A stretch of DNA of 64,000 nt from Bacteroidota bacterium (GTDB taxonomy: Bacteria; Bacteroidota; Bacteroidia; Chitinophagales; Saprospiraceae). The DNA lies in assembly GCA_017858735.1 (NCBI GenBank), contig JAFMBH010000001.1, positions 124,001 to 188,000 on the forward strand, written 5' to 3'. Under the pieces are notes generated by a model that had not been told where the DNA came from, did not search any database, and saw only the letters and a list, made by a program, of their open reading frames with translations. Positions 47,219-60,674 of the stretch are shown piece by piece. Position numbers and translations under genes: made by a program. Position 1 is the stretch's first letter. Each line of letters opens with the position of its first letter.

Positions 47219-48907
47219 TTATATATCATCTACTTCAAATGCCAGATCATTATCTCTTATTTTTAATTCAGGGTTATTTTGAATGGCTTTCAAATAAAAC
47301 TCTTTGGCAATTTTTTTCTCTCCCTCATTAAAATAAAAGGTAGCCAAATCATAATAAGCAAACTTATGATTTGGTAAAACCTCAATGGTTTTTAAGTAAT
47401 ATTCTAAAGCCTTATAAGGTTTATAAGAAATATTACTCAAATATATAGCGTAGGTATATAAAGCTTCTTTAGGAAATGAGGATTGCTTTATGCACTGTTT
47501 TAACAAATTACCAGCTCTTTCCATTTTTTCCGGGAAATGGGAAATTATGATAATTGCCAATTCATACAATGATTCTCCATGATTTGGATCAATGAGCAAT
47601 AATTCCTCTAAAACAGATTTTGCCTCATCCCACTTATTTTGACTAAGTAAAATCTTAGATAAAGCTAATTTTGCCTCTGTTTGATGCCCATTTCTTTCAA
47701 TAAAATGCTGAAGAAAACTAATTTTTTGATGCTCATTTTCAGCTTCCCTCAATACAAGTTTTAAATGAAAATATTGTCGTTCAACATCTGTAGGATATTG
47801 ATTTTCAATTTGTTTGTACAATGAGGTAGCTGCTTCTAAGGAAGATTCCGTTTCCACAGTAGGTAAAACTTGCTCTGCTACTTCCTGTTCTTCTTGTTCT
47901 TCCTCCTCTTCCTTTATCGTAATTTCTTCTTGTTCTTCCTCCTCTTCCTTTATTATTTCTTCTTCTTTAATAACTGATGTTTCAAAAGTAAACGAAACCT
48001 CAGGTGCAGCTTGTTCAGTGCGAGGCAGTGTTAAATCAGTTGTTCCAATGGGTAAGGTTTGTATTGGTTCAGTGATTTCATCACTAACTAAATGATCAAC
48101 GTTTACGATTTCTTCGTACTCATTGTTTGTCAAAATGGTTGAATCCTCGTTTGATGAACTCGTAAAATTGAACTCTCCGCTATCAATATCAGAGGAGGGG
48201 GCTACTTCAATTACCTCCTCTTCAAACTCAATATATTCGGTTAACGGAATAGGTGGAGGAAAACTAAGATCATCTTCTATGATTTGCTCTGGTTCATCCT
48301 CTAAAAATAAATTATCCTGAAAAGGGAACTCAATCAATTGGTCTTGAAGTAATTGATATTTATTTTTTAATGACCTGCATTCTACGAGAGATGGTGGCAA
48401 AAACTTTCTTAAGTGCCTCAATGTTTCACCCGCTTCCGAGGAAAGCATTCTTAATAAATTAGAATGATTTTCAAAAGCCATTTTATCAGACTCATCAGCT
48501 CTTATTTCGGTTTTTCGACTTCTGGCTTCTAAATATTGACTTTGCCAATAGTTTATGTATGGGATGATATCTCCAATTTTATCAATCATTGTTGGAACTT
48601 CCTTAATTTCACCAGTCATAGGATCGGCATCGGTTCCGCTTACCAATATTGGCACCAAATTATTAGCCTTCCTGGTGACTAAAGATAAGGTGTTTTGCAT
48701 GCACGAAATGGATCGTAAAAAATTTACACTAATCAAAAGAACGATAGGGCCATCAAAATCTTCCAACTGATTATAAATCGAAGGCTCTGCATGGCTATTT
48801 GAGCTGACCAATTTAAACTGGATACTGGTATTTTTAAAATCCTGTAGGATTTTATTAACGGATGATTGATTTTCCTGACAATATGCTAAGGCTACCATTT
48901 GATTCAT
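47219..48907 (-). CDS. TIR-like N-terminal domain, Glu-rich linker, TPR C-terminal protein
   Basis: N-term MVALAYCQENQSSVNKIL...DGPIVLLISVNFLRSISCMQNTLS...LVPILVSG resembles TIR fold; acidic repeat linker; TPR helices LSKILLSQNKWDEAKSVLEELLLIDPNHGESLYELA. Confidence 0.6.
   Translation of the reverse strand: MNQMVALAYCQENQSSVNKILQDFKNTSIQFKLVSSNSHAEPSIYNQLEDFDGPIVLLISVNFLRSISCMQNTLSLVTRKANNLVPILVSGTDADPMTGEIKEVPTMIDKIGDIIPYINYWQSQYLEARSRKTEIRADESDKMAFENHSNLLRMLSSEAGETLRHLRKFLPPSLVECRSLKNKYQLLQDQLIEFPFQDNLFLEDEPEQIIEDDLSFPPPIPLTEYIEFEEEVIEVAPSSDIDSGEFNFTSSSNEDSTILTNNEYEEIVNVDHLVSDEITEPIQTLPIGTTDLTLPRTEQAAPEVSFTFETSVIKEEEIIKEEEEEQEEITIKEEEEEQEEQEVAEQVLPTVETESSLEAATSLYKQIENQYPTDVERQYFHLKLVLREAENEHQKISFLQHFIERNGHQTEAKLALSKILLSQNKWDEAKSVLEELLLIDPNHGESLYELAIIIISHFPEKMERAGNLLKQCIKQSSFPKEALYTYAIYLSNISYKPYKALEYYLKTIEVLPNHKFAYYDLATFYFNEGEKKIAKEFYLKAIQNNPELKIRDNDLAFEVDDI
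47891..47953. repeat. Short tandem repeat, 36-bp period, encoding Glu-rich (EEEEEQEE) segment
   Basis: Identical 27-mers ttcttgttcttcctcctcttcctttat at 47891 and 47927. Confidence 0.85.
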
Positions 48908-50501: not shown

Positions 50502-51035
50502 TTAAGCACCTTTTTCGCCAACGAAATAATGCTCCTTTTTGTCAAACAGGATGTTGAATGTTGTTAAACTGCCATAAATTTTTGTTATATATTGCTGAAG
50601 AATAATTTTATCCTCTTCACTTAATATTGCATGGTTATTAATTTTTTGTTCCATAACTCTCAACCTTTCTCTGGTCATAATAATTTTCTGGAAAAAAGTT
50701 TCGATGGGAATTTCTTTACTCTTGAGGCTTTTGTCGAATGGTTGTAAAATAAGCATTCCACTTTTCCATCTATCACCTAAATCAGGATTATCCTGTATTA
50801 AATTATAGTTCTTCAAAATCTTGAGTAAACTTTTTTCTGCTTCAGAATACGTAATGGCTTCCTCAGCAGGAATATGTTCTATCACCTCCCATTTATCGTA
50901 ATCCTTACCAACTTGTTTTATTCCATAGAGCATAAAACAAACATCGTAAGAAATGGCGTATAATTTTATAATTACACCATCGCCAAAAGCAGAGTGATTA
51001 ACCCTTGAGCCAACACCAAGATAATTTTTTTCCAT
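50502..51035 (-). CDS. Hypothetical protein with N-terminal Tudor/CarD-like segment
   Basis: MEKNYLGVGSRVNHSAFGDGVIIKLYAISYDVCF; start at MEKN rather than the ORF-track start. Confidence 0.6.
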   Translation of the reverse strand: MEKNYLGVGSRVNHSAFGDGVIIKLYAISYDVCFMLYGIKQVGKDYDKWEVIEHIPAEEAITYSEAEKSLLKILKNYNLIQDNPDLGDRWKSGMLILQPFDKSLKSKEIPIETFFQKIIMTRERLRVMEQKINNHAILSEEDKIILQQYITKIYGSLTTFNILFDKKEHYFVGEKGA

Positions 51036-51107
51036 TTTTAACGTTTTTAAAAAGCAAAAATAGGAAGGTAATTTCAATAAATTACATAGAGAATGTTCAG
51101 AAATAGG

Positions 51108-51185
51108 AAATATTTAATCTATTTTGATAAATTTGCATGATAAATAAAAAGACATTATTCTTAAGAACGATTAAGAAATATTTTG
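51108..51185 (+). repeat. Left copy of 78-bp direct repeat (hemE 5' end)
   Basis: AAATATTTAATCTATTTTGATAAATTTGCATGATAAATAAAAAGACATTATTCTTAAGAACGATTAAGAAATATTTTG matches 60675-60752 with 7 mismatches and no gap. Confidence 0.95.
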
Positions 51186-51190
51186 CTTAA
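51137..51190 (+). pseudogene. Truncated hemE N-terminal remnant (MINKKTLFLRTIKKYFA*)
   Basis: Aligns codon by codon with hemE MMKKNTLFLRTINKDF at 60704. Confidence 0.8.
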
Positions 51191-53816
51191 CATATCCGTT
51201 TAATTGATCTTCACTATTTATAACAGCCATTATATCATTACTATATTCTTTGTAATGATGCAGTATCATTTTGTATAACGGCATATTTGTGATTTTAAAT
51301 TCTTGATCTAAACAAAACCATAAATATGATTTTATTTCATTGGGAAAGTTAAGAAAGATTAATTTTTCAATTATCTGATAAGCATTATCTATAGTTGATT
51401 TTGAAGGATAATTCCTTTTTGATCGATATAATATATCTTCCAATTGATCAGGATATAAGTTTCCGAAGTGAAAAAGCGCTAATTCATATATGAATCGTTC
51501 TTTTGAAAAACAAGCACTTGACAATTGATTATAGGTTATTTTCTTATCCTTGATGAGCTCCGAAATTGATAAATATCTTGTTATCAAATTTAATCTACCA
51601 GGATGGTGGAATCCTAAATGACTAATAGTTTCTATTAAATTCAACTTTAGAACAGGAACAAAAGGTTCTAATTTCCTAAGTATAGTAATTGTCGCTGATT
51701 CTTGATAGATTGGTAATAATAAAGCTTTTTCTTGTTCATCTAAAATTAATTCAAGAATTTCTAGAGCCATAACTTGATTATCCTGCTCTTTAGAATTGAT
51801 TAAAGCATTGATATTATTTAATATTTTACTATCATTTTTGAGCCCTAAAAGATGGAATATATTTTTTATAATTTGATTTGATTCTTCTTTCACTACCAAT
51901 TTTAATAAAACTAAAGAACTTTGTTCCAATGTTTGTAAAATAGATAATAACTGACAATACTCCTTTAGATTTTCTTTTAATTGATGATAATAATACGAAT
52001 CTTTAGTCTCTATATTTATATGGTATTTAAGCTTTGTAGCTAATAGGGTAGAATAAAGTTCTCTATCTTCTTTATTAGGTATTAAATACGTTTTATCCGA
52101 ATTTTCTATCGTTCTTTTTTTTGCATAAAGCGTCCACAAAGCATTTAATGCTATTTTGGCTTCTGGTCTTTCAAGTTTTAAATGATTAAAAAAATCCTTT
52201 GTATTCTTTACTAAATCTTCGATAGTATCTATCTTATACTTTTCTAACTGATAAAAAATGAATGGATAAACTTCTGGTATCATTAACCAGAATACCTTAA
52301 TTTTAGGATTTAAATGTTCTAAATTAGGGTTTATTCTTAATTCATTTATCAATTCTTCAATTTTTTGAGGATTTTGATTTACAGCTAATTCTTTAGCATT
52401 TTCCTGACTATATTGGTCAATTTGATTATTTACACACGAAATATCCCTATTATTATCCAATGTTTTGGTTTCATTATCTTGAATAATATTAGAGGTTAAC
52501 TCTTCTTTATTAAAAACAATTTTTGATATACGTTTTTTTAATTCATCTCTATAATGTGGTAATAATTTTTTAGCTATATTTAGCAGAAATAAACTGGATA
52601 GAATTAATAAAGAATTTATAAAAAATATTTTCAGTGTAAAAGATGGTAATAATGATATAAGGAAAAGAAGGAAACCTGCTATAAATTGACCGTAAGTTTT
52701 ACCTTGTCCATCAGCAAAATTCTGAGCTATACCCTGCATTTTACCGGTATATACCTGAAATAATACGCTTAAAGTCGGTGTATAAATAGATCTTACCAAG
52801 GATCTCTCCATTATTTTATTCAATAAAGTAGCTATAAATAAAAAGGTAATGGCACCCACGGCATGCGACACAAGTCCAAAGAGAGAAATTATACCAATAA
52901 CTATGGAAAAAGTTATTATTCCTGCTTGAACTCCATAGTTCTTCAGTAATTTATTTGATATGGTAGTTTTAAGAATAAGTTCAAATACCTTGGCGCTACC
53001 AAATATAAAACCAAAGAAAGAAGCCAAGGTTTTGGTGTCTTTGATTACTTCCTTTGTAACGATCATTAAGCTAAAATCAACCGTTGATTGTATTATAACG
53101 GCAATCACCACGGAGAAAAATAAAAACTTGATTAATGGAATATTTAGTAAAGTTTTAAATGAAAAAGTTATTTCAATTTCTACTTCATTTTCATTTTTAA
53201 TTTCGTTTGTATATTTGTATTCAGAAAATTTATAATTTAAGATCATAAAGAAACCCCAAAATAATAAAATACCAGAAAAAGATATCAATAATAAATAGGA
53301 CTCTTTTACGATAATACCCTGACTTAATAATATGGGAATAGATAAATAAGCTAATATCGCTGAAATTACTTCCCCAGAACTTATGATGCCATTTAATTTT
53401 TTATTTTGTCCAAAACTTAGAAACTTACCAGGAAGCTTCCAAAATAATAATAAGATGAAATTTCCAATGACCCAAAACCATGCGTAGGAAAAAAATATAA
53501 CTAATTTATTGGTTCCAAAATTTGTGCAGCAATACCATACCAAAAATACACTGGCAGCTATTATAGGCAGCAGAATTTTTGTAATTCCTTTTAAACTATA
53601 TTTTAATTCAAATTTATTAAAAATACTGGTTAACAACATTCCACCTAAACCTGAAACGATATAGGCTAAAGGTAAATTATCAACTCCTGCTATTTTAACG
53701 AATACGGCAGATATATAAGAAACATAATAAGAAATAAATATTCCTGAAAAAAAGGACATCATTACCAATATAGTGATGATGCGTTTTTCTTCAGAGGATA
53801 ATTTATTTAACATCAT
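51171..53816 (-). CDS. MFS/NTT (ATP/ADP translocase)-like transporter with helical C-terminal domain
   Basis: 881 aa; about 12 TM segments in first ~420 aa, then a soluble Leu-rich helical (HEAT-like) region; stop codon lies inside the left direct repeat. Confidence 0.65.
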   Translation of the reverse strand: MMLNKLSSEEKRIITILVMMSFFSGIFISYYVSYISAVFVKIAGVDNLPLAYIVSGLGGMLLTSIFNKFELKYSLKGITKILLPIIAASVFLVWYCCTNFGTNKLVIFFSYAWFWVIGNFILLLFWKLPGKFLSFGQNKKLNGIISSGEVISAILAYLSIPILLSQGIIVKESYLLLISFSGILLFWGFFMILNYKFSEYKYTNEIKNENEVEIEITFSFKTLLNIPLIKFLFFSVVIAVIIQSTVDFSLMIVTKEVIKDTKTLASFFGFIFGSAKVFELILKTTISNKLLKNYGVQAGIITFSIVIGIISLFGLVSHAVGAITFLFIATLLNKIMERSLVRSIYTPTLSVLFQVYTGKMQGIAQNFADGQGKTYGQFIAGFLLFLISLLPSFTLKIFFINSLLILSSLFLLNIAKKLLPHYRDELKKRISKIVFNKEELTSNIIQDNETKTLDNNRDISCVNNQIDQYSQENAKELAVNQNPQKIEELINELRINPNLEHLNPKIKVFWLMIPEVYPFIFYQLEKYKIDTIEDLVKNTKDFFNHLKLERPEAKIALNALWTLYAKKRTIENSDKTYLIPNKEDRELYSTLLATKLKYHINIETKDSYYYHQLKENLKEYCQLLSILQTLEQSSLVLLKLVVKEESNQIIKNIFHLLGLKNDSKILNNINALINSKEQDNQVMALEILELILDEQEKALLLPIYQESATITILRKLEPFVPVLKLNLIETISHLGFHHPGRLNLITRYLSISELIKDKKITYNQLSSACFSKERFIYELALFHFGNLYPDQLEDILYRSKRNYPSKSTIDNAYQIIEKLIFLNFPNEIKSYLWFCLDQEFKITNMPLYKMILHHYKEYSNDIMAVINSEDQLNGYVKQNIS

Positions 53817-53819
53817 AAT

Positions 53820-54626
53820 TTATTTATATTGGTAAATGGCTCTTTGAAAATTTATATAAATTCCTTTATCTCCTTTAATTAATTTAACTTGATTTTTAAG
53901 AGCGTTAGTTTCATTATAATAAATTTCTTGAATAAATTCAAGCCATTCTTTATATAAAGATGTATTTCCATGCAATTCCGATTCAAATCTTCTATAGGTA
54001 TCAAAAAGATATTCAAAAATAAAAACGGGCTCTACAGGTTTTATTCCAGCTTCAAATAATAACGAATTAAATTGATCTTCAGAATCAAAATATCGGGTTT
54101 TTTGCATGGTATTGAAACCCGCAAGTTCGTCTTTCTTTAAAATTACTGCTGAAAAAAAATTTCTTATATAACTTGGAAGATAAGGACGCCATATCGTTAG
54201 TATGCCATTATCATTGAGTAGTAGCTTTGCCTTTTTTAGGGCATTTTTTTTATTTTCTAACGAAAATTCATGCAATACCATTTTAAATATAACGTGATCA
54301 TATTTTTTTTCTGTAGTAAATGACATTAAATCTGAATCTATGAATTGGATATATTTTTGAACTGCATCAAAACTTAAATCTTTTAAAAATTTTTCTTTCC
54401 CTTTGTTTAATTGTAAATTAGAGGGTTCCAGTAAATCATAATAAAAATTAATATTAGCATTTCTTTTTCTCAATTCTAATAAAATTTCTCCATATCCACC
54501 GCCAACATCAATTACCTTTTGATTGTCAGAAATATTTAATATTTCAAAAAATATATCAAAATGTACATTACTTGTAGCATGAATATGATGATAATCCACC
54601 TTTCTACGATTGTAATCTTCCTGCAT
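53820..54626 (-). CDS. Class I SAM-dependent methyltransferase
   Basis: KVIDVGGGYGEILLEL motif I; IFKMVLHEFSLENKKNALKKAKLLLNDNGIL. Confidence 0.85.
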   Translation of the reverse strand: MQEDYNRRKVDYHHIHATSNVHFDIFFEILNISDNQKVIDVGGGYGEILLELRKRNANINFYYDLLEPSNLQLNKGKEKFLKDLSFDAVQKYIQFIDSDLMSFTTEKKYDHVIFKMVLHEFSLENKKNALKKAKLLLNDNGILTIWRPYLPSYIRNFFSAVILKKDELAGFNTMQKTRYFDSEDQFNSLLFEAGIKPVEPVFIFEYLFDTYRRFESELHGNTSLYKEWLEFIQEIYYNETNALKNQVKLIKGDKGIYINFQRAIYQYK

Positions 54627-54630
54627 AAAA

Positions 54631-57462
54631 TTAATAATTTAAAGTTACCCTTACCATAAGAAATCTGGGCCGTTGGGGCACAAATGGCACAAATCCTGAA
54701 ACATTTGAAAATGAACCAGATGCAGTACGAGGTCCAGGATGATAAAATCTTTTATCCCCTGCATTAAGAATGTTGTTATTTAATAAGTTATTTCCAAGAA
54801 TAGAAACCCTCATCCAGGATATATTTTTATGTGTAAAATTAATTGCACCATTAAAAATTAAATAAGCTTCTACCGTATTATTAGGTATAGCCAAATTGCC
54901 TGATTGGGTAGTACCAGGTCCAACCTTTTTATCACTTACATAATTAGCCCTTAAATCTATATTTGTATAGATATTATTAAGCATAAAATCTAAATTACCT
55001 CCTGCATTAAAATGATGTGCAGCGATATCACCAATCCTTAAAGGCATAAAATCTTTCGTGACTCCATCAGCTACCTGATTTGGTAATATAAAGGTATGAT
55101 TTAAATAGGCTTTAAAAAAACCATTCAATGCCTGATACCTTAAATTAGTCATCGTTCCAAAAATCTGATATGAACCTATATTTCGATTTTGCGTAATTCC
55201 TTTTGCATCTGTGCTAGACGCTACAGCATCTTTAATAAAACTATTATAACCCATTATTTCCCATTCGAATTTTTTCTGGAAAAAATGACCCAAGATGGAA
55301 AGGTTTAGAAAATCTACTTTTTCCGTTTCAAGAGATGGGTTTGGTGTTCTTCCTCCTCCAGTTGAAAATTTAGTCCATTGGGAAACATTTTGAATACCCC
55401 TGGAATAAATAGCTTTTATTGTAAATGAAGATATTCTATAAACAAGGACAACACGTGGAGAAACCTCATATCCAAATCCTCCATTTGCTCTAATACGGTT
55501 ATAGTCTAACCTTGCTCCTGTATTCAAAATTAATTTTTTAGGAATAAGGTTAATATTTAATTGAGAATAAATACCTAAATCAAATATTGAAAATAAATTA
55601 CTTCCTTTTTCTTGATTTTTTACTGTTCCTAATTCCTGAGCAAAGGAAATATCATTTTGATTAATCGTATTTTTGTAATCAAAATTGGTAAAATTTAAAT
55701 AATCTCCTTGCATGTAACTGGACCTAAATTCAATACCACTTGAAAAATTAAACTGGTTGCCGGAATAAAATATTCTAAAGTCGTTTCTAAGCTGTTTTGC
55801 CTGATAATAAAAATAGGTATTTGCAAATCCTTGTTTATGAAAGGCTGTACCTGAATTATTTATAATGAGTGAATCTTGATTTAGAAGATGTGCCAGGTGT
55901 AAACCGCTAGCAGGAAGTCCATAGGGATAAAAATTAACTCTGTTGGTAGATTTATCAACACTATGGTCATGAAAAGTTGTTAGATTTGTAATGGATAAAC
56001 GTTCAAAGGTTTGTTCATACTTAGAATAAATTGTCAAATTTTTGGGAATCCACAAATTACCATTTCTTGATCCTGGTGAATAAATATCCTGATAATAATT
56101 AAAACCTTCTTCATTTCTCCAGGTACTTAGACCTAGTACAAAATTATTCATACTTAATTTGGCACTTAAAAAATAATCTTTGGTATGATTTGAAAATCCA
56201 TTTGGATTACCATTGACATTTCCGGCATAAGCCTCTTTGTCTTTTAATCTTGCTTTTTCAATTCCTTCCTGTGTCAAAATGATACTGTCAACCCCATTGT
56301 TTTTATTATAAAAAATCTGATAAAAAGGACTGGTTTTTGGAATGTTAAACGTACTTACATATTCACTTAATGGAATTATTTTTTTAACTCCATTGACATT
56401 ACTTACCGTAAAATTTCCTTTTAAATTTAAAGCAGTATATTTAAATTTATCTATATCTGTTGGAGAGTAATTATAAAATTCAGCAAAGGAAAGGTCATCT
56501 TCATCTGAGGAAAAATATCTTCCAGTTACAGATAATTTAAAATTTTTGGTATTCAATCCAATGGTTATGTCCGCATCTTTTGTTCGAAAAGAAGCATTAC
56601 TAAAATTGGCATTTACATAGATTGGATTTAATTTTTCGTCTTCTTTGTTTCCTTTATCAAATTTCGTTGATGGGTTCTCACCTGCACCTAGCGTTAGAAT
56701 ATTTATTGCTCCCACAAATGCTCGAGGTCCATACATAGTTGAGGAAGGTCCATACAATACCTCCACGGCTTTTATATTTGAAAGTGGATACTGTCTTGAC
56801 AAATAAGCTATATTTGACCAAATGTCATTTTCTTCAACGCCGTCAATCATTAAAAGTGTCCTTTCAGTATTCTCTTGTCGGAATCCTAATTGGAATACAT
56901 TGGCATAGGTGGCAGAAAATATTTTGCTAATTTCAAATCCTGGCAAATCTTGTAATATATCAATGATATCTACATATCCTCTTCTTATTATTTCTTCTCG
57001 GGTTATTAAAATAACCGATGCAGGCGCTGTTTCAATATCTTCTGCATTTTTAGAAACGGAATATACTTTAACCACTTGATTGGTTAATTTTATTTCATTG
57101 AACAGTTGGTCAAAAACAATATGTGGGTCGGAACTGAAAGATGGATCATTTAAAACAATAGTTTTAATGAATGATTTAGCAAGTATTATACTATCTTCTG
57201 CAATAGCTATTAGTGCTAATAATCGGAGAGCCCTACTATTATCCTGATTTCTTGAAAATCCTTCGTCCTTTAAACAGGAATTTATCAATAATTTAGATTC
57301 TTCAAATTTTCCAATCTTATATAATTCCGTTGCATTATTTATATTAATAAAATCACACTGCGCATCTAGCTGACTATTTAACGCAAATATTATTATAATA
57401 TAAAGCCATTTTAAACGGCGTATGTGTTTTAATAATTTATTAGTCCGGCTTTTAAACATCAT
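54631..57462 (-). CDS. TonB-dependent receptor with N-terminal TPR-like domain
   Basis: Signal peptide; N-term CDFININNATELYKIGKFEESKLLINSCL; plug domain APASVILITREEIIRRGYVDIIDILQDLPGFEI...VEVLYGPSSTMYGPRAFVGAINI; terminal strand RFLMVRVTLNY. Confidence 0.88.
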   Translation of the reverse strand: MMFKSRTNKLLKHIRRLKWLYIIIIFALNSQLDAQCDFININNATELYKIGKFEESKLLINSCLKDEGFSRNQDNSRALRLLALIAIAEDSIILAKSFIKTIVLNDPSFSSDPHIVFDQLFNEIKLTNQVVKVYSVSKNAEDIETAPASVILITREEIIRRGYVDIIDILQDLPGFEISKIFSATYANVFQLGFRQENTERTLLMIDGVEENDIWSNIAYLSRQYPLSNIKAVEVLYGPSSTMYGPRAFVGAINILTLGAGENPSTKFDKGNKEDEKLNPIYVNANFSNASFRTKDADITIGLNTKNFKLSVTGRYFSSDEDDLSFAEFYNYSPTDIDKFKYTALNLKGNFTVSNVNGVKKIIPLSEYVSTFNIPKTSPFYQIFYNKNNGVDSIILTQEGIEKARLKDKEAYAGNVNGNPNGFSNHTKDYFLSAKLSMNNFVLGLSTWRNEEGFNYYQDIYSPGSRNGNLWIPKNLTIYSKYEQTFERLSITNLTTFHDHSVDKSTNRVNFYPYGLPASGLHLAHLLNQDSLIINNSGTAFHKQGFANTYFYYQAKQLRNDFRIFYSGNQFNFSSGIEFRSSYMQGDYLNFTNFDYKNTINQNDISFAQELGTVKNQEKGSNLFSIFDLGIYSQLNINLIPKKLILNTGARLDYNRIRANGGFGYEVSPRVVLVYRISSFTIKAIYSRGIQNVSQWTKFSTGGGRTPNPSLETEKVDFLNLSILGHFFQKKFEWEIMGYNSFIKDAVASSTDAKGITQNRNIGSYQIFGTMTNLRYQALNGFFKAYLNHTFILPNQVADGVTKDFMPLRIGDIAAHHFNAGGNLDFMLNNIYTNIDLRANYVSDKKVGPGTTQSGNLAIPNNTVEAYLIFNGAINFTHKNISWMRVSILGNNLLNNNILNAGDKRFYHPGPRTASGSFSNVSGFVPFVPQRPRFLMVRVTLNY

Positions 57463-57470
57463 AATCTTTA

Positions 57471-60400
57471 TTATTTACCTTTTTCATTTAAAAATATCTG
57501 CGCCATATTATAAATTTCATTTGGATCAAAAAACCATTTTCGAATATTCATATCATCACTGCAACTATAGTAAACTCCTGTATTAGCATCAAAAACCATA
57601 TCTGTAACCCAGCCAGAATGTAAATCAAAATCAATTGTTGATTTTGATATAAAAGGTTCATTTTTATTTCTAAATATATAATCTACTATTATCTTATGGT
57701 CTAATCCACTGCTTATCAATAAAAGATCATCTTTAACAATATCTAAGTTACAGTAAGTAATACTGGATTGATGAGCTTTTTTATTAAAAATAATTTTACC
57801 CGTCAAATTATTAATTAAATAAATATTACCTTTAATATCACCAAGTAATAAATAATCTTCATTTTGATATGCTTTAATGGCTATAGTACTAATCTGATTA
57901 GGAACCTCCAATAATTTTTCCCAGTTACTTGATGATGTAAATTTGTTTATTTTCATTGTATAAACAGAGTTACCCAAAGTAACATAAATAAAATTTGAAG
58001 AATTTCCCTTTATTATTTTAGTTAAAGGTTTTTCAACAGGTAGTTTATACTTTTGAAAGGGAGAATCCTGCGACAAACCATTCAAAATAAAAATATCATT
58101 TAATGAGCTAAATAAGTAATTATCTTCATTTAAGTGCAAAACAGATTTTACGGGTTCTCCGGAAATTAATCTGCTCCATTTTAAGGTTCCACTTGACAGG
58201 TCATATAAATGAATATAACCATCTGTAGCACCAACTAATAAGTCATTATTTTTCGTAAAGCAAAAAGACTCAAATTTTTGAAAGGGAATTTTAATATTTA
58301 TAATTTTAACAAAATTAGGTTGAAAAATAGTTATAATTCCTCCGATACTATATGCTGCAATTAATTTCCCATTACCACTTATAGCCATATTTTTCAAAGG
58401 TTGTTTTAATTTTAAGCTAAAAGTATTGGGAATGCTGGCATTTAAACCATAAACAAGCGATTTATATATTTCAGGTTCGTAGGGATTTCCCTCATTTTGT
58501 GTATTAACAACATAAGCAATTGCTGACAATTTGAGACCTTCTTTTATTTGATTATTCAGATAAAACCGAAAAGAATTTAAGGCATCTGCCCTGGCTTCCT
58601 GTTGTTTTCTTAATTTTTCTGCACGTTTAAAGTTATTTGACGCTTGTAACAAAGCCTTATCCACTTCTAATCGGGCAGCAATGGCGTTTTGTCTTTCTTT
58701 TTCAGCAACATCCTTTGCCGAAATGGCTATTGTTCTGTCAAGTTCTGCTTGTTCCTTAGCAATACTTTCTGCTTTTGTAGCTATCAAGGCTTTAACTTTC
58801 TCTTGGTTTGCTTCATCCCTAGCTACAATAGCTTGTAGTCTTTCATTTTCGGCTAATTGTTTAGCAATACTTTCTGCCTTTGTAGCTATCAGCGCTTTTT
58901 TACGCTCCAGATCGGCAAATTCCTTGGCATCTAAAGCCTGTTCCTTTGCTGTAATGGCTATTTTTCTCTCTGATTCTGCATTCTTTTTGGCTAATAAGGC
59001 ATTATTTCTTTCTATACCTGCTAATATAGCGGCAAGTGAAGATAAAATAAAGGCACCCCCGACCACAAAGGCTATTCCTCTAGATATTTTAAGCAATCGT
59101 TTACTTCTTCGCTGACTTGCCTCCAAAGCCGCTTTTTTATTAGATATTGAATTTTCAATAAAATGAATAGTTAATTCATATTCGGGTGCATAAAAACGAG
59201 CCCAGTGCAAATTATGATTAGTTTCATTTAACCATATTACAGCTTCTTCTAAAAAAGAACCTGTTAATAAATCAGCATTTCCATTTAGGTGCAAAACGGC
59301 TTGAGAATTTAAATCCAGATAGGAGTTTATTTTAGAAAGTTCTTCCATTTTCCATTGTTCCATTTCTTCCCAATGTGAAAGAAAATCTGGAGAAATAATG
59401 GTGTAATATTCTTCAACTTTTTTTATAAATTTAAAAGAGTTGGAATCTAAATCATGAATAATAATTTTTATTTGTGTTAAAGGTAAGTTTGAAATATCCT
59501 TTATATTGTCAATAGTTAGATTTCTAAATGAAAAATCATTTTTATTATTTTTAATTAGAAAACACTGAAAAAAACTTTGGTATACTTTATTCATTGAAGA
59601 TAAAGATATACCCTCTTGATTTTTCATTATCAAATATGATTTATTTTTAAATAAATCATATTGCTTTTGTATCAGATTATTAAAGCCACCTGTTTCATCA
59701 AAATGTTCTGATAAAACGATTCTTTGTGTATCACTTTTATCCTTTAATAACAAGTTTATTTGTTGAATACAACTTGCTACAATAGATAAAGAGATATTAT
59801 TTTTAGATATTTCCCCAAGCATTAATTCCTGACAGGAAGAACTTAAACTTAAGTAATAAATTGAACATACTTCTTCCAGAAATACCTTTATGCCCTCAGA
59901 TGTCGCTTCGGGAATAAACTGACCTACTTTATTCAACAAGAGAGCCAAATTGGAATAGGAGTTAACCATACCCATTGTTTTAAAATAGAATATGGTATAA
60001 ATGCCTCTTTTATTAATTTCTTTAATAAAAGCTAATTCGTTATCAATCTCTTTATTTGACAACGAATCGAAATAAGCCTGAGCATTATCTATAACAAAAA
60101 GGTATGGAGTATCATTATTATTAGTATTCTCAGATGGTAAATCAATATCAGGGTTATTTTTAAATATCTGCACTAATGATTCATTTAGATATAAGGAATG
60201 ACCCTTTAATGAAGTTATAGAACCTAATTTATTTAATAAATTTTTAATTAGTGTATTAATATAAATATTGTCTTTTGAATATTCATTTAAATCTTTATTT
60301 CCATTAGTACCAAATAAAAATAAAGACTTATGCTCTATTAATAAATTAACAGTATATTCAATTAAAACAGATGATGTTCCTTCAAACAAACTAGAATGAA

Positions 60401-60491
60401 AAACATTGTTTATTCCTTTTAAAGGAATATTATTATCGGTTCCCAATTTTTTTAAAAAATTTTGATTTGCAAATATAATAGTAATACTCAT
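57471..60491 (-). CDS. STAND/nSTAND-like membrane protein: degenerate NTPase region, single TM, coiled coil and WD40-like propeller
   Basis: SKRLLKISRGIAFVVGGAFILSSLAAILAGIERNNALLAKKNAESERKIA junction typical of WD40-nSTAND proteins; C-terminal propeller blades; no GxxxxGK[ST]. Confidence 0.6.
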   Translation of the reverse strand: MSITIIFANQNFLKKLGTDNNIPLKGINNVFHSSLFEGTSSVLIEYTVNLLIEHKSLFLFGTNGNKDLNEYSKDNIYINTLIKNLLNKLGSITSLKGHSLYLNESLVQIFKNNPDIDLPSENTNNNDTPYLFVIDNAQAYFDSLSNKEIDNELAFIKEINKRGIYTIFYFKTMGMVNSYSNLALLLNKVGQFIPEATSEGIKVFLEEVCSIYYLSLSSSCQELMLGEISKNNISLSIVASCIQQINLLLKDKSDTQRIVLSEHFDETGGFNNLIQKQYDLFKNKSYLIMKNQEGISLSSMNKVYQSFFQCFLIKNNKNDFSFRNLTIDNIKDISNLPLTQIKIIIHDLDSNSFKFIKKVEEYYTIISPDFLSHWEEMEQWKMEELSKINSYLDLNSQAVLHLNGNADLLTGSFLEEAVIWLNETNHNLHWARFYAPEYELTIHFIENSISNKKAALEASQRRSKRLLKISRGIAFVVGGAFILSSLAAILAGIERNNALLAKKNAESERKIAITAKEQALDAKEFADLERKKALIATKAESIAKQLAENERLQAIVARDEANQEKVKALIATKAESIAKEQAELDRTIAISAKDVAEKERQNAIAARLEVDKALLQASNNFKRAEKLRKQQEARADALNSFRFYLNNQIKEGLKLSAIAYVVNTQNEGNPYEPEIYKSLVYGLNASIPNTFSLKLKQPLKNMAISGNGKLIAAYSIGGIITIFQPNFVKIINIKIPFQKFESFCFTKNNDLLVGATDGYIHLYDLSSGTLKWSRLISGEPVKSVLHLNEDNYLFSSLNDIFILNGLSQDSPFQKYKLPVEKPLTKIIKGNSSNFIYVTLGNSVYTMKINKFTSSSNWEKLLEVPNQISTIAIKAYQNEDYLLLGDIKGNIYLINNLTGKIIFNKKAHQSSITYCNLDIVKDDLLLISSGLDHKIIVDYIFRNKNEPFISKSTIDFDLHSGWVTDMVFDANTGVYYSCSDDMNIRKWFFDPNEIYNMAQIFLNEKGK
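58756..58900. repeat. In-frame internal repeat (105-bp/35-aa period) in coiled-coil region
   Basis: KALIATKAESIAKQLAENER and KALIATKAESIAKEQAELDR; nucleotide matches starting at 58756 and 58861. Confidence 0.8.
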
Positions 60492-60674
60492 ATATAATAT
60501 ATTGAATGTCAATTAAAATTTTTTTTTCTATCAAAACTTTTTTTCACCTAAATGGTAGATTAATATTTTTTTCATATTATTTTTCAAGGAATCAATACCC
60601 TTAATCATTCTCTTGACAATATTATTTTCATGTATAATGCCGCAAAAAATCCATTATATCTGTAATAAAATGGT

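Follow-up and report, generated by a model that had tools for sequence, protein, structure and literature searches.

The nSTAND1 NTPases (Pfam PF20703) were named in PMC8195603. Inactive STANDs are also known: iSTAND, iSTAND2 and the eroded STAND of the GT4/HEPN two-STAND operon (PMC8195603, PMC7159879). With inactive STANDs already described, one of them in an operon beside an active copy (PMC8195603), a dead STAND is no novelty in itself. Among contractile injection systems (CIS), CisA of Streptomyces is a bitopic membrane protein that is needed for firing (PMC12237407). AlgoCIS of Algoriphagus machipongonensis is an extracellular CIS (eCIS) from a genus of Bacteroidota (PMC8894135).

The stretch of 64,000 nucleotides analysed here (the window) encodes a putative pseudo-STAND. 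It shares with nSTAND1 NTPases the AAA+/STAND fold, as predicted by modelling, the order nSTAND, winged helix, transmembrane (TM) helix, coiled coil and WD40, and the syntenic site before a TonB receptor. Unlike them, it has no P-loop, arginine box, sensor-1, winged-helix histidine or N-domain Pfam match. Eroded NTP-binding motifs also characterise iSTAND, iSTAND2 and the GT4/HEPN STAND, and the one active and one eroded copy of the GT4/HEPN operon resemble the tandem relatives of the pseudo-STAND. Those proteins lie in MoxR-vWA ternary or GT4/HEPN systems, whereas the pseudo-STAND is of the nSTAND1-WD40 type, spans the membrane and is linked to a TonB-like receptor. The scanned neighbours in the operon include no MoxR AAA+ or vWA gene, and the window protein contains no EAD. 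Catalytically dead subunits of ORC and clamp loaders keep the AAA+ fold for ring assembly with active partners. ORC and clamp-loader chains are among the top structural matches; the homology is at fold level only. CisA is comparable as a CIS-linked bitopic membrane protein with a cytosolic N-terminus and as a possible firing anchor or sensor (PMC12237407). It is unrelated in sequence and domains, Gram-positive, and its function was tested by deletion (PMC12237407). In relatives of the AlgoCIS genus, eCIS genes are followed downstream by a tandem STAND pair; the text of the AlgoCIS paper mentions neither TonB nor WD40 (PMC8894135).

The protein appears to be a natural, old and selectively maintained case of a STAND switch that is kept without its switch. 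It opens to testing the long-standing question of the role of inactive STANDs, and of whether they join an active STAND assembly as pseudo-subunits; the two copies are encoded side by side in five genomes. An envelope module of TonB-like receptor, STAND-WD40 and MFS-like protein that is linked to eCIS could, if real, be the missing signal input of these injection machines.

Gene and domain layout

The longest open reading frame covers 57471..60512 on the minus strand (1013 aa) and opens at a TTG. The first-pass annotation had used this frame with the ATG at 60491 as start. The frame holds, but a TTG at 60446 is the likelier start. The orthologue from another species of the same genus (G200, locus L019) is 91% identical. 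It lacks the ATG of the window gene and has an in-frame TAA just 5' of a TTG that is common to both genomes, which makes the TTG at 60446 the likeliest start. The TAA was considered as the mark of a pseudogene in G200 and ruled out, since it lies upstream of the conserved TTG start. The octamer TATATTTG (60470-60477, minus strand), 23 nt before the conserved TTG, is kept in G200 within an AT-rich stretch; it is a candidate for a Bacteroidota -7 element of the TAnnTTTG type. An antisense reading frame (58681-59115, plus strand) was dismissed as a shadow of the repetitive coiled coil. Rfam gave no match on the locus. The gene and its parts are as follows.

57471..60446, minus strand: pseudo-nSTAND1-WD40 gene, likeliest start TTG at 60446
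59103..60425, minus strand: degenerate nSTAND1 domain with winged-helix/helical part, residues 30-470 of the 1013-aa reading frame, predicted cytosolic
60276..60311, minus strand: degenerate Walker A position GTNGNKDLNEYS, residues 68-79, a low-confidence loop in the model and not conserved in orthologues
60066..60107, minus strand: vestigial Walker B PYLFVIDNAQAYFD, residues 136-149
59013..59075, minus strand: single TM helix, residues 480-500, positive side N-terminal
58443..59012, minus strand: Ala/Glu-rich coiled coil, residues 501-690, the slowest-evolving part (dN/dS 0.07)
57474..58442, minus strand: WD40-type beta-propeller, residues 691-1013, predicted periplasmic

The earlier description of the C-terminal half (TM helix, Ala/Glu-rich coiled coil, propeller) was confirmed by a single TM helix and a WD40 Pfam model above the cut-off. 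Pfam matched the protein with beta-propeller models only. The N-terminal third had no significant match in Pfam, NCBIfam or PADLOC, so that family-level annotation would miss its nSTAND origin. The PADLOC defence-system library gave no match. Six lysine or arginine residues precede the TM helix of the window protein and three follow it. The same polarity, with 5-10 before and 1-5 after, was seen in all relatives examined, 11/11 without P-loop and 20/20 intact ones. It predicts a cytosolic N-domain and a periplasmic coiled coil and propeller.

Fold, nucleotide site and descent of the N-domain

The origin of the N-domain was approached by profile alignment and modelling. With hhalign, five window-type N-domains aligned with 13 intact nSTAND1 domains over 304 collinear columns (E 5e-4, score 36). 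Control scores were at most 26 in 60 column shuffles and 13.5 with the reversed profile. A hidden Markov model of intact proteins, winged helix included, matched the window N-domain at E 3e-22. PF20703 itself had no match above the cut-off in the window protein, whereas it matched the intact nSTAND1-WD40 protein of the distant relative L016 at E 1e-95. A PDB sequence search with the intact domains was dominated by P-loop matches to proteins of the ABC and UvrA kinds; SSO1545 (2fna) was also returned, and no nSTAND1-type protein appeared among the 60 chains listed.

An AlphaFold (AF2) model computed from an alignment of P-loop-less proteins only showed the AAA+/STAND fold (pLDDT 81.5, pTM 0.75). 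The ASCE beta-alpha core and the helical and winged-helix parts were thus predicted without intact sequences in the input. The model of an intact relative (pLDDT 88.6) has the same order of strands and helices. Best Foldseek matches of the P-loop-less model in the PDB were Orc1/Cdc6, RFC, RuvB and SSO1545 (prob 1.00, E ~1e-5). Their TM-scores were modest, ~0.2-0.56 depending on the length used, and therefore indicate a match of fold class and not a close one. The intact model matched Orc1, Apaf-1, CED-4 and Avs4.

Structure prediction hence gave an AAA+/STAND fold and not an unrelated one. Together, profile alignment, fold, motif table and tree provide good support for the earlier suggestion of an origin from a STAND NTPase and for the loss of its nucleotide site. 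Judged by collinear homology, the common TM helix, coiled coil and propeller, and the operon position, the window protein is by descent a member of the nSTAND1-WD40 lineage. For clade-II P-loop-less proteins (L024 type), hhalign found no match between their N-domains and intact ones, and the N-domain is identified there by position only. Clade-II homology to intact proteins rests on the part from the winged helix to WD40.

The winged helix that is kept in the model allows another reading, in which the inactive STAND would serve as receptor for nucleic acid, a role suggested before for iSTAND and iSTAND2. The winged helix would bind nucleic acid, and the TM helix and WD40 propeller would relay the signal. 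The structural relatives Orc1, RFC and RuvB bind DNA, and the proposal was made for inactive STANDs in general (PMC8195603). The N-domain of the window protein has, however, a net charge of -13. With 22-23% identity between genera, the winged helix is one of the least conserved parts of this domain, and the segment between the winged helix and the TM helix is best conserved. A nucleic-acid receptor is improbable on these grounds.

The missing P-loop was noted on first reading of the sequence, and comparison with relatives bears this out. The motif G....GK[ST] is absent from the first 250 residues of the window protein and present in 40/40 distinct full-length, TonB-linked, intact nSTAND1-WD40 relatives. 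Two further intact relatives (L029, L074) carry GKT variants. Counting these two, Walker A is found in 42/42 full-length intact relatives and in 0/11 P-loop-less proteins. The segment proposed as closest, LFGTNGNKDLNEYS, sits exactly at the P-loop position, directly after strand beta-1. Orthologues read GTNGNSKD, GTQELELD and GTKYPELN at this position, a variation that speaks against a common constraint. The loop also ranks with the least confidently modelled parts of the core (pLDDT <50 at model residues 64-66).

Further motifs of the site have disappeared as well. In the joint alignment, 11/11 P-loop-less relatives lack the arginine box (GRE box), the lysine of the P-loop, the sensor-1 arginine and the histidine of the winged helix. 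The Walker-B-like stretch of the first-pass annotation, PYLFVIDNAQAYFD, is indeed located at the Walker B position. It is no conserved feature: only one sister species has it in common with the window protein, which marks it as a remnant. Of the canonical Walker B (D-QFEE), the aspartate is kept in the window protein and G200 only, and the acidic residues after it are lost.

By sequence, the nucleotide site of the N-domain is gone; motif loss and the loop model make the protein a putative inactive STAND. A non-canonical working site would still bind nucleotide by GTNGNKD at the P-loop position and the remaining Walker B aspartate. The window protein and G200 do keep the glycine-rich turn, a lysine and the aspartate. 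Yet the would-be site varies between orthologues, which read GTQELELD/SFGGCS and GTKYPELN/LNFLNF at the two positions; the loop has the lowest confidence of the model core, and arginine box, sensor-1 arginine and winged-helix histidine are lost too. An intact site of this kind is very improbable.

The gene is maintained by selection. Values of dN/dS were calculated by the Nei-Gojobori method with an own script. The comparison of the window gene with G200 gave 0.23 overall, with 0.31 for the N-domain, 0.07 for the coiled coil and 0.26 for the propeller. Overall values of other P-loop-less genes were 0.16 (L021/L022) and 0.14 (L024/L026); the intact tandem partner in L024/L026 had 0.06. These values indicate purifying selection on the pseudo-STAND, with an N-domain that is relaxed but constrained. 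Conservation within the N-domain is highest in the segment between winged helix and TM helix (39-57% between genera) and lowest in the winged helix and in the core that surrounds the lost site. A gene in decay, with a lost NTPase and a protein drifting to a pseudogene, might account for the N-domain value of 0.31, compared with 0.07 for the N-domain of an intact partner in another species pair, and for the TAA in G200. But all dN/dS values are well below 1, full-length frames occur in several families and the TAA precedes the conserved TTG start. Decay is barely probable at all.

In a tree of the part from winged helix to WD40, ten P-loop-less proteins formed one clade (support 100/100) apart from all intact proteins, although long branches meet in this tree and call for caution. 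The clade spans several Bacteroidota families. The simplest reading of these sequences is a single loss of the NTP site after a duplication. Nucleotide binding would thus have been lost once, in the ancestor of a Bacteroidota clade, while the AAA+/STAND fold, the winged-helix region, one inner-membrane TM helix, the coiled coil and the WD40 propeller were presumably retained.

Receptor operon and proposed intact partner

The pseudo-STAND gene starts a tight operon, followed by genes for a receptor, a methyltransferase and an MFS-like protein:

54631..57462, minus strand: TonB-dependent-receptor-like protein with a TPR-like N-terminal segment (by eye) and a Plug domain, starting 8 nt after the pseudo-STAND stop
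53820..54626, minus strand: SAM-dependent methyltransferase of the same operon, 4 nt after the receptor
51171..53816, minus strand: MFS-like membrane protein with a long C-terminal part (881 aa), 3 nt after the methyltransferase

The Plug domain of the window receptor was matched at E 7e-16. The barrel model PF00593 matched only the receptor homologue in L016 and not the window copy. The MFS-like protein of the window had no Pfam match; HEAT_2 was matched in its homologue at L016:12396-15308. The MFS-like protein was considered as a nucleotide transporter with HEAT repeats, a reading not retained since the window copy lacks Pfam support.

A receptor-alignment scan of ~85,000 species genomes yielded 80 loci. 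Where a locus reaches far enough upstream, the gene next to the receptor on that side mostly encodes an nSTAND1-WD40 protein. Downstream of the receptor, a methyltransferase or other small gene is frequent, with an MFS-like gene after it. A fuller version is found in G157 (L016), a distant member of the family, with the order EAD1-containing protein, intact nSTAND1-WD40, receptor, small gene and MFS-like/HEAT protein.

The genes around this core vary. In the sister lineage, an EAD1 or TIR-like protein is encoded directly upstream of the intact STAND (L016:4001-5821 on the plus strand, L040, L042, L062, L069, L070, L081, L093 and L094). Small genes take this place in L051, L078 and L096, and they are STAS and anti-sigma-kinase-like in L051. 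These upstream genes seem to give one and the same receptor-STAND core different outputs. A CHAT-domain fragment follows a receptor paralogue in G128 (L011:4024-4560, plus strand), with a Pfam E-value of 1.7e-4 just under the cut-off. A TPR protein in the window (47219-48907, minus strand) has a TIR-type-like N-terminal part by eye, which finds no support in Pfam; its gene is kept downstream of the operon within the genus. After the MFS gene, a 191-aa protein is encoded (50502-51077, minus strand) with a weak PcrA/UvrD-tudor match. Its homologue in G048 (L020) lies upstream of the pseudo-STAND gene instead, so the operon has moved relative to this gene.

An intact copy accompanies the P-loop-less protein in several relatives. 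Five loci (L024, L026, L029, L033, L091) have the tandem order intact nSTAND1-WD40, P-loop-less protein and receptor; their hosts are Cyclobacteriaceae and a Sphingobacteriales bin. No intact gene is located immediately upstream of the P-loop-less gene in the window, G048, L021 and L022. Owenweeksia (L077:8408-9994 and L086:8407-9999, both plus strand) has versions with only the TM helix, coiled coil and WD40 propeller. The NTPase domain is wholly absent from these proteins, which are still encoded directly upstream of the receptor. What stays constant is thus the membrane-periplasm half.

The assembly of the window's genome yielded no nSTAND1. Among other genus members, 6/6 have an nSTAND1 match, several of them on a contig that also carries eCIS genes, and fragments are present in G048 and G201. 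In the regions read of G148, G200 and G202, the nSTAND1 gene is complete and located ~6 kb from the Pvc16-family cap gene of an eCIS cluster. The eCIS cluster of the window's genome is on contig C144 (L106, first 15 kb). This contig begins inside a 337-aa gene which, in G200, is divergent from the intact nSTAND1 gene. The break beside the expected site suggests that the absence from the assembly is probably a gap; with the matches in the genus, it speaks against a true absence from the genome.

On balance, the window protein is probably a pseudo-STAND that is anchored in the inner membrane and works independently of nucleotide. Its periplasmic propeller would serve the TonB-like outer-membrane receptor, and the protein would act as scaffold or regulator of an active nSTAND partner. 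Coiled coil and propeller may contact the periplasmic N-terminal domain of the receptor, to read or to hold it. The inert cytosolic domain would work by protein contact and not by ATP turnover. Its likeliest contact would be the intact nSTAND1-WD40 paralogue, which the pseudo-STAND may anchor, nucleate or hold back. Its most likely role towards this paralogue would be that of an anchor or pseudo-subunit.

The working copy paired with it in relatives and the adjoining phage-tail-like injection machines suggest a scaffold or sensor rather than an enzyme. The first-pass annotation had proposed a non-ATP-hydrolysing scaffold or sensor derived from a STAND NTPase. The STAND origin and the loss of the site stand, and the role as scaffold or sensor is plausible. 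The TonB-type receptor in the operon, the preceding intact paralogue in related genomes and the link to eCIS were not part of that proposal.

Possible link to contractile injection systems

The receptor of the window belongs to a clade of 26 loci (support 100). Core genes of eCIS were found in the fetched flanks of 14/26 loci of this clade and 1/58 others (Fisher 4e-8, with shared ancestry ignored). Pvc16_N, of the Pvc16-family gene, was detected in 11/11 tested genomes with a P-loop-less STAND, one of them weakly (E 3e-4), compared with 32/120 genomes in the window's family. The window locus has no eCIS genes nearby; the eCIS of the same genome is located on another contig.

Several loci combine both gene sets. 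In G205 (Algoriphagus-type), genes for cap, spike, baseplate, tape measure and AAA+ protein are followed on one strand by a four-gene set, which includes DUF4407 and GH18 proteins, and then by intact STAND, P-loop-less STAND and receptor. In L024, the MFS-like gene comes next after the intact, P-loop-less and receptor genes. L021 has P-loop-less STAND, receptor, methyltransferase and MFS genes, and then the same four-gene set as G205. The receptor operon runs directly into Pvc16-like and sheath genes in L027, L035, L041 and L074. A setting of nSTAND1-WD40, TonB and eCIS was not found in the open-access literature searched.

The output of the envelope module may concern contractile injection, that is, deployment, release or firing; this step is more speculative still. 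It is possible, if rather unlikely, that many Bacteroidota contractile injection systems have a dedicated trans-envelope control module. A TPR-TonB-like receptor in the outer membrane would be read by the periplasmic WD40 propellers of two inner-membrane STANDs, an active and a catalytically dead one, and the module would decide on the release or firing of particles. In the lineage of the window, the dead STAND and the receptor would have moved to a separate locus.

An ordinary TonB-linked relay without a role in eCIS is a possible, if somewhat unlikely, alternative. The pseudo-STAND would only couple a nutrient receptor to an inner-membrane transporter, and eCIS proximity would result from clustering in genome islands. 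Sister-clade modules of STAND, TonB and MFS genes are consistent with this, as they are accompanied by EAD1/TIR-like, STAS/anti-sigma or two-component propeller genes and not by eCIS; so is the window locus, which is free of eCIS genes. The repeated adjacency of eCIS core genes, in different arrangements, and the Pvc16 distribution given above argue against it.

Receptors of this TonB-like family directly adjoin eCIS genes in L014, L015, L025, L027, L028, L035, L036, L038, L039, L041, L045, L054 and L074. Their neighbours there are genes for AAA+ ATPase, tape measure, Pvc16-like cap and sheath, with or without STAND, in several Bacteroidota families. On contig C13 of G205 (L112:11601-13022), the sheath and first tube genes are absent from the position that they have in other clusters, and a 173-aa gene follows directly after the cap-adaptor gene.
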